DNA of 64,000 nucleotides from Halorubrum distributum JCM 10118. Its GTDB lineage: Archaea > Halobacteriota > Halobacteria > Halobacteriales > Haloferacaceae. Positions 55,636 through 55,917 of this stretch are shown one piece after another. The number at the start of each line of letters is the position of its first letter. The stretch's first letter is position 1. The DNA is taken from positions 1 through 64,000 of the forward strand of contig NZ_AOJN01000027.1 in NCBI RefSeq assembly GCF_000337335.1. Reading direction: 5' to 3'. The notes under the pieces were generated by a model that worked only from the letters and a program-made list of their open reading frames with translations, was not told the origin of the DNA and searched no databases. A program made the position numbers and the translations under genes.

Positions 55636-55917
55636 ATGGAACTGGAACTGCGGTTCTTCGCGACGTTTCGCGAGGCCGCCGGCGGGAAGACGGTGAACGC
55701 GGAGTTCGCCGACGGCTCCACGGTCGGCGACGTGTTGCGCGAACTGGAGTCGGAGTACGAGGGGATGGAGGGCCGACTGATCGTCGACGGCGACCTCGCC
55801 CCGCAGATCAACGTCCTGAAGAACGGCCGCGAGGTGCTCCACCTCGACGGGCTCGACACACCGATGGCGGACGGCGACCGGCTCTCCGTGTTCCCGCCGG
55901 TCGCGGGGGGGTCATGA
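55636..55917 (+). CDS. samp1: MoaD/ThiS-family protein, SAMP1-like, ending -GGS
   Basis: A 93-residue beta-grasp protein. ELELRFFATFREAAGGKTVNAEFADGSTVGDVLRELESEYEGMEGRLIVDGDLAPQINVLKNGREVLHL and a final FPPVAGGS. The usual SAMP/MoaD end is -GG, which is adenylated and used for sulfur transfer to molybdopterin or for conjugation to proteins. Here the stop codon comes one codon later, giving a terminal Ser that is part of the TCATGA overlap with the next gene. It would need trimming, or act differently. Confidence 0.88.
   Translation: MELELRFFATFREAAGGKTVNAEFADGSTVGDVLRELESEYEGMEGRLIVDGDLAPQINVLKNGREVLHLDGLDTPMADGDRLSVFPPVAGGS

Follow-up and report, generated by a model that had tools for sequence, protein, structure and literature searches.

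The SAMP3 gene of Halorubrum distributum JCM 10118 contained in the window (i.e. the whole stretch of 64,000 nucleotides that was analysed) very probably encodes a pro-protein. Judged by its relatives, the product would be an ordinary, conserved member of the ubiquitin-like modifiers that carries one residue behind its reactive diglycine, with a JAMM1-type desampylase expected to cut after Gly92 and thereby to set the 3' end of the gene free. For the genus as a whole, the most likely reading is that Halorubrum SAMPs are trimmed by a ubiquitin-type protease before they can work. The usual picture of SAMPs comes from Haloferax volcanii and has these modifiers made ready for use, with a terminal GG, and JAMM1 acting later as a remover. 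What appears to be new is the existence of natural, genus-wide precursor-encoded SAMPs in haloarchaea, involving three SAMPs at once, together with a recurrent fusion of SAMP3.

A preliminary description of this DNA had labelled the open reading frame as SAMP1/MoaD-like, a name that should be replaced by SAMP3: the closest solved protein is HVO_2177, the SAMP3 of H. volcanii (PDB 2m19, E 3e-36, residues 1-92), the PDB entries of SAMP1 reach an E of only about 1e-12, and the SAMP1 gene proper is a separate locus on contig C18. The window protein is also hit by Pfam ThiS and by the NCBIfam model that bears the name SAMP1, and the full-length beta-grasp fold is present with HVO_2177 as the nearest relative. 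The two orthologous modifiers share an identical FPPVAGG end, including the VA before the diglycine, but H. volcanii SAMP3 stops at GG whereas the window protein carries one residue more, Ser, and therefore a maturation step would be needed. The terminal codons, GCG (A90), GGG (G91, 55906-55908), GGG (G92, 55909-55911) and TCA (S93), bear out the VAGGS end and the overlap with the next gene as originally described (Table 1); a single residue follows the diglycine because the stop codon overlaps the start of the partner gene.

Table 1. Coordinates of the SAMP3 locus, numbered from the first nucleotide of the window.
Feature	Position	Strand	Remarks
SAMP3 (HVO_2177 orthologue) gene	55636..55917	+	93 aa, ATG 55636 to TGA 55915-55917, C-terminus FPPVAGGS
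Diglycine codons G91-G92 (GGG GGG)	55906..55911	+	predicted cleavage site after G92
G run, exactly 7	55905..55911	+	relatives without such a run keep the frame
Extra codon TCA (Ser93), one-residue tail	55912..55914	+	
ATGA stop/start overlap of SAMP3 and partner gene	55914..55917	+	partner ATG 55914-55916, TC-ATGA
Partner gene, 151 aa	55914..56369	+	acidic low-complexity N-terminal part, then arCOG06308/1V8C-CTD-like domain
Conserved partner domain, 88 aa	56103..56366	+	C-terminus KAMRAGG, itself GG-ended
Third overlapping gene, 144 aa	56369..56803	+	TGATG overlap, no family match

The run of seven G at the diglycine does exist and had raised the suspicion of an error, but the chance that a sequencing, assembly or slippage artefact created the extra residue is negligible. 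Many independent genomes use different Gly codons and agree in frame and in the type of tail, including relatives without a homopolymer of this length: GGGGGT-TCATGA (L011), GGAGGA-TCATGA (L018), GGGGGC-TCATGA (L029), GGCGGC-GCATGA and others. Since these relatives share the frame and the type of end, the residue is not an artefact; the run itself is nothing unusual, because the window holds three further G/C runs of 7.

The comparison of orthologues that the preliminary description had suggested revealed that further family members do carry extra residues after GG, and the case is therefore genus-wide rather than odd. Not one SAMP3 gene in 52 Halorubrum genomes stops directly at GG. Short tails of 1-3 residues, in most cases an Ala, Ser or Thr that results from an NCATGA overlap, are encoded in 40 of them (H. 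sodomense, H. californiense and H. xinjiangense with one residue), and in 12 the gene is fused in frame with the downstream protein (H. trapanicum, H. aquaticum, H. cibi). Across the whole family (144 genomes) 37 genes stop at GG, 77 are tailed and 30 are fused, the 92 genomes outside Halorubrum accounting for 37 GG-stops, 37 tails and 18 fusions; Haloferax genes stop at GG. The diglycine was invariant across all fetched SAMP3 genes. On a FastTree phylogeny of SAMP3 plus partner, short proteins that leave many forks open, the three states changed at least 16 times; fused and split forms were exchanged at least 8 times, at least 4 of these changes being forced by well supported branches. One gene counted as a fusion (L151; genome G070, genus code g6) has lost the stop after RAGG, and its reading continues beyond the partner.

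The 105 extended genes on this tree show where conservation ends. Their two Gly codons changed at least 23 and at least 37 times, all synonymously, as against at least 44 changes of the residue at +1 after GG. All 30 fused proteins share an unvarying FPPVAGG block, directly behind which comes an acidic linker that aligns poorly. Judged from these substitutions, selection in the extended SAMP3 proteins ends exactly at G92; residues stand behind an otherwise invariant GG, as in precursors of ubiquitin-like proteins (Ubl). An invariant GG with a variable +1 residue fits a protease site just after GG and not a dispensable linker. On the other side, the tails vary in length and sequence, so that no tail is a recognised signal. 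As a plain observation, not used as evidence, Pro is absent directly after GG.

Tails are also found on the other two SAMPs. In the H. distributum genome SAMP1 (L002, contig C18:157180-157452, minus strand) ends in -GGSVGR and SAMP2 (L335, contig C40:7658-7849, minus strand) in -KGGTGTGDSP. Among 50 Halorubrum SAMP1 proteins, 34 are tailed by 3-8 residues, most ending in Arg, and 16 stop at GG; SAMP2 is tailed in all 24 loci that could be read by C-terminal pattern, 5 of the 30 fetched loci having been left out. GG is kept in every SAMP1 and SAMP2 copy read. The SAMP2 tails of relatives, mostly with Ala as the last residue, have the look of short repeats that are expanding (ATDGDATDGDA, AEGGPTNGDPAEGGPAEGGP). 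The earlier view that the extra SAMP3 codon is fixed by the gene overlap can be maintained in so far as NCATGA overlaps are common in Halorubrum, but it is not the whole story. Other lineages have tails of 2-47 residues or in-frame fusions, and these, together with the tails of SAMP1 and SAMP2, reject the overlap as the sole cause of the tail; coupling to a downstream gene is not the only route to a tail.

The machinery that would use a freed C-terminus is encoded in the same genome. UbaA and MoaE are both intact; a 218-residue fragment of UbaA scores 433 bits against the E1 equivalog model, slightly short of the full-length cut-off of 450. The JAMM1-type desampylase, on contig C18, scores 160.4 bits against NF041370 (curated cut-off 130) and has its HSHP...SETD motif intact; a cognate JAMM gene is therefore available for a putative precursor, and a second JAMM protein is also encoded. 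No beta-grasp Ubl with a free terminal GG was found in this genome. MoaD-type carriers act through a C-terminal Gly thiocarboxylate (PMC4443979). Since such carriers use their C-terminal Gly, and since the genome has no free-GG Ubl yet keeps the activating and user enzymes, trimming is the economical conclusion. In the survey, taken as raw counts that ignore relatedness, the sole genomes devoid of JAMM1-like genes are 14 that have no SAMP3 either and three that are incomplete. JAMM1 occurs in tailed and untailed genomes alike and hence its presence does not track the tail; as the enzyme is needed for deconjugation in any case, its distribution denotes opportunity rather than cause.

Cleavage of this kind has precedents in Archaea. 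In vitro, HvJAMM1 cuts a linear SAMP1-MoaE fusion precisely behind the second Gly; its cleavage in vivo requires both jamm1 and an intact GG (PMC4443979). The likeness lies in a Ubl-GG-polypeptide as JAMM substrate and in the JAMM1 orthologue encoded in the genome of the window; SAMP1-MoaE, however, is an engineered fusion, whereas the Halorubrum tails are natural and the fusion partner is a different one, natural Ubl-MoaE fusions in Archaea being reported only from Crenarchaeota (PMC4443979). In Caldiarchaeum subterraneum CsJAMM cleaves SAMP precursors and CsRpn11 a ubiquitin precursor (PMC6043591). There too an archaeal Ubl bears residues past GG and is matured by JAMM, as we infer for Halorubrum, but the lineage is another one and the tails are unrelated, the SAMP3 tail of Halorubrum being tied to a gene overlap and growing into a fusion. 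Iyer and colleagues had put forward that fused ThiS/MoaD domains are released by JAB enzymes (PMC1779556). The tails might be trimmed by a different protease or by a carboxypeptidase instead of the JAMM desampylase, and the short ones (1-10 residues) would be removable by exopeptidases; we regard this as improbable, given that HvJAMM1 has a GG-stopping endopeptidase activity in vivo (PMC4443979) and that fusions of 95-143 residues with a conserved domain at the end call for an endopeptidase, one halting exactly at GG.

The protein that overlaps or extends SAMP3 has a family signature of its own. Its N-terminal part is acidic and variable between copies and its C-terminal domain is conserved, with the terminus KAMRAGG in 215 of 218 copies and KAIRAGG in the other 3. 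It was found in the SAMP3-bearing genomes of the family and in none of the SAMP3-less ones listed (three negatives being outside that list), and in the phylum sample it was seen only within the order of the window. In one genus (code g18), several genomes have the partner domain once or twice more, outside the SAMP3 locus. Pfam and NCBIfam searches with the partner and both neighbouring open reading frames gave nothing over threshold, and a partner profile searched against PDB sequences gave no meaningful match. Fold comparison, the only route by which 1V8C was found, places the predicted structure (pLDDT 92.7) on residues 89-165 of this Thermus thermophilus protein (Z 10.9, rmsd 1.6 A, 77 aligned; next best Z 7.6), the stretch behind its FPPVAGG, so that the predicted partner has the 1V8C-CTD fold. 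At the sequence level the Pfam family DUF1952 is not reached: 5 of 56 partner members match weakly (best E 0.0054), and the partner locus is not among the hits of PF09189 (DUF1952) in the H. distributum genome. The excerpt on which we draw describes arCOG06308 as a proposed small Ubl analogue, specific to Halobacteria, GG-ended and of TBP-like fold, adjoining a MoaD-like Ubl (PMC2948915). The partner, likewise small, haloarchaeal, GG-ended and encoded next to a MoaD-like gene, fits arCOG06308 by this description, and the third gene of the overlapping series may be one of the small neighbours, arCOG06307/06309, that are listed there for it. The same excerpt mentions neither a fusion to SAMP3 nor a link to 1V8C.

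The likeness to 1V8C, a MoaD domain with FPPVAGG followed by the partner fold (MoaD + DUF1952), bears on whether SAMP3 is processed at all. The Thermus protein is a fused bacterial MoaD-related protein, whereas in the window the two domains are encoded by separate overlapping genes; one polypeptide is found in 30 of 144 relatives. SAMP3 might function without being cut, forming a non-covalent or cis-acting unit together with its partner and keeping GG for partner contacts, as the one-to-one co-occurrence and recurrent fusion of the two proteins would allow; 1V8C, a single chain in which FPPVAGG joins both folds, may itself act uncleaved. We consider this distinctly improbable. It leaves the SAMP1 and SAMP2 tails unexplained, no such partner being noted for either and GG being always kept, and SAMP3 of H. 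volcanii is a UbaA-dependent Lys modifier acting through its C-terminal Gly (PMC7305310). Nor is docking of GG into the partner predicted. In the model of a fused relative (L109) both domains are well predicted, the SAMP3 part superposing on 2m19 (Z 15.8, rmsd 1.5 A, 92 residues), and between these two folded domains only residues 91-93, the GG segment, fall below pLDDT 50, a feature that speaks for processing at this point; together with a pTM of 0.55, this means that the model does not fix the mutual placement of the domains. Support is likewise lacking for an ordered arrangement of the domains in common with 1V8C: both align, but with an rmsd of 14.9 A.

It is therefore the trimming of a precursor, as proposed early on by analogy with some ubiquitin precursors, that the comparative evidence strongly supports. 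The cut after Gly92 by a JAMM1-type desampylase would expose the carboxylate for adenylation by UbaA, and with a GG-restoring protease present the 3' end of the gene would, in our proposal, be free to run on. This freedom may have permitted the 4-base ATGA coupling with the partner gene in Halorubrum and full SAMP3-partner fusion in several lineages; overlap or fusion would secure a coupled, equal output of two co-occurring proteins, and translational coupling is thus a plausible selective reason. It is tempting to go further and to see the SAMP3-partner fusion as an archaeal counterpart of polyubiquitin-type precursors, from which JAMM would free two different GG modifiers arranged in tandem, one ending in VAGG and the other in KAMRAGG. 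The partner, a non-beta-grasp protein that keeps its C-terminal GG in every copy read, would then be either activated and conjugated itself or the dedicated acceptor of SAMP3. We hold this extension to be unlikely.

Ubiquitin precursors and ubiquitin-ribosomal protein fusions of eukaryotes consist of a Ubl-GG with extra residues or a whole protein behind it, trimmed before E1 activation; there cysteine proteases do the work, whereas a JAMM enzyme is expected in Halorubrum, and the partner is unrelated. If Halorubrum SAMPs are precursors, the desampylase would be obligatory for maturation, as deubiquitinases are for ubiquitin, and its action would precede protein modification, tRNA thiolation and molybdopterin synthesis. 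Ranging from genes that stop at GG, through those with one extra residue, to complete fusions, the natural series would show how ubiquitin-type fusion genes originate, and it ties SAMP3 to a co-occurring, uncharacterised partner. In practice, SAMP constructs copied from tailed genomes would bear a blocked C-terminus.

Another ThiS-family protein of the H. distributum genome (L003, contig C18, near 223885-224154) ends in YPFMFCC and not in GG; it fits the haloarchaeal CC-ended group arCOG00539 as outlined in the excerpt cited above (PMC2948915), and its gene adjoins an apparent nitric oxide reductase-type gene. Remnants of a Nextera adapter (CTGTCTCTTATACACATCT) have been left in assemblies at L003:1074-1119 (same contig), L310:1851 and L320:810, in each case followed by N or an N-containing stretch.
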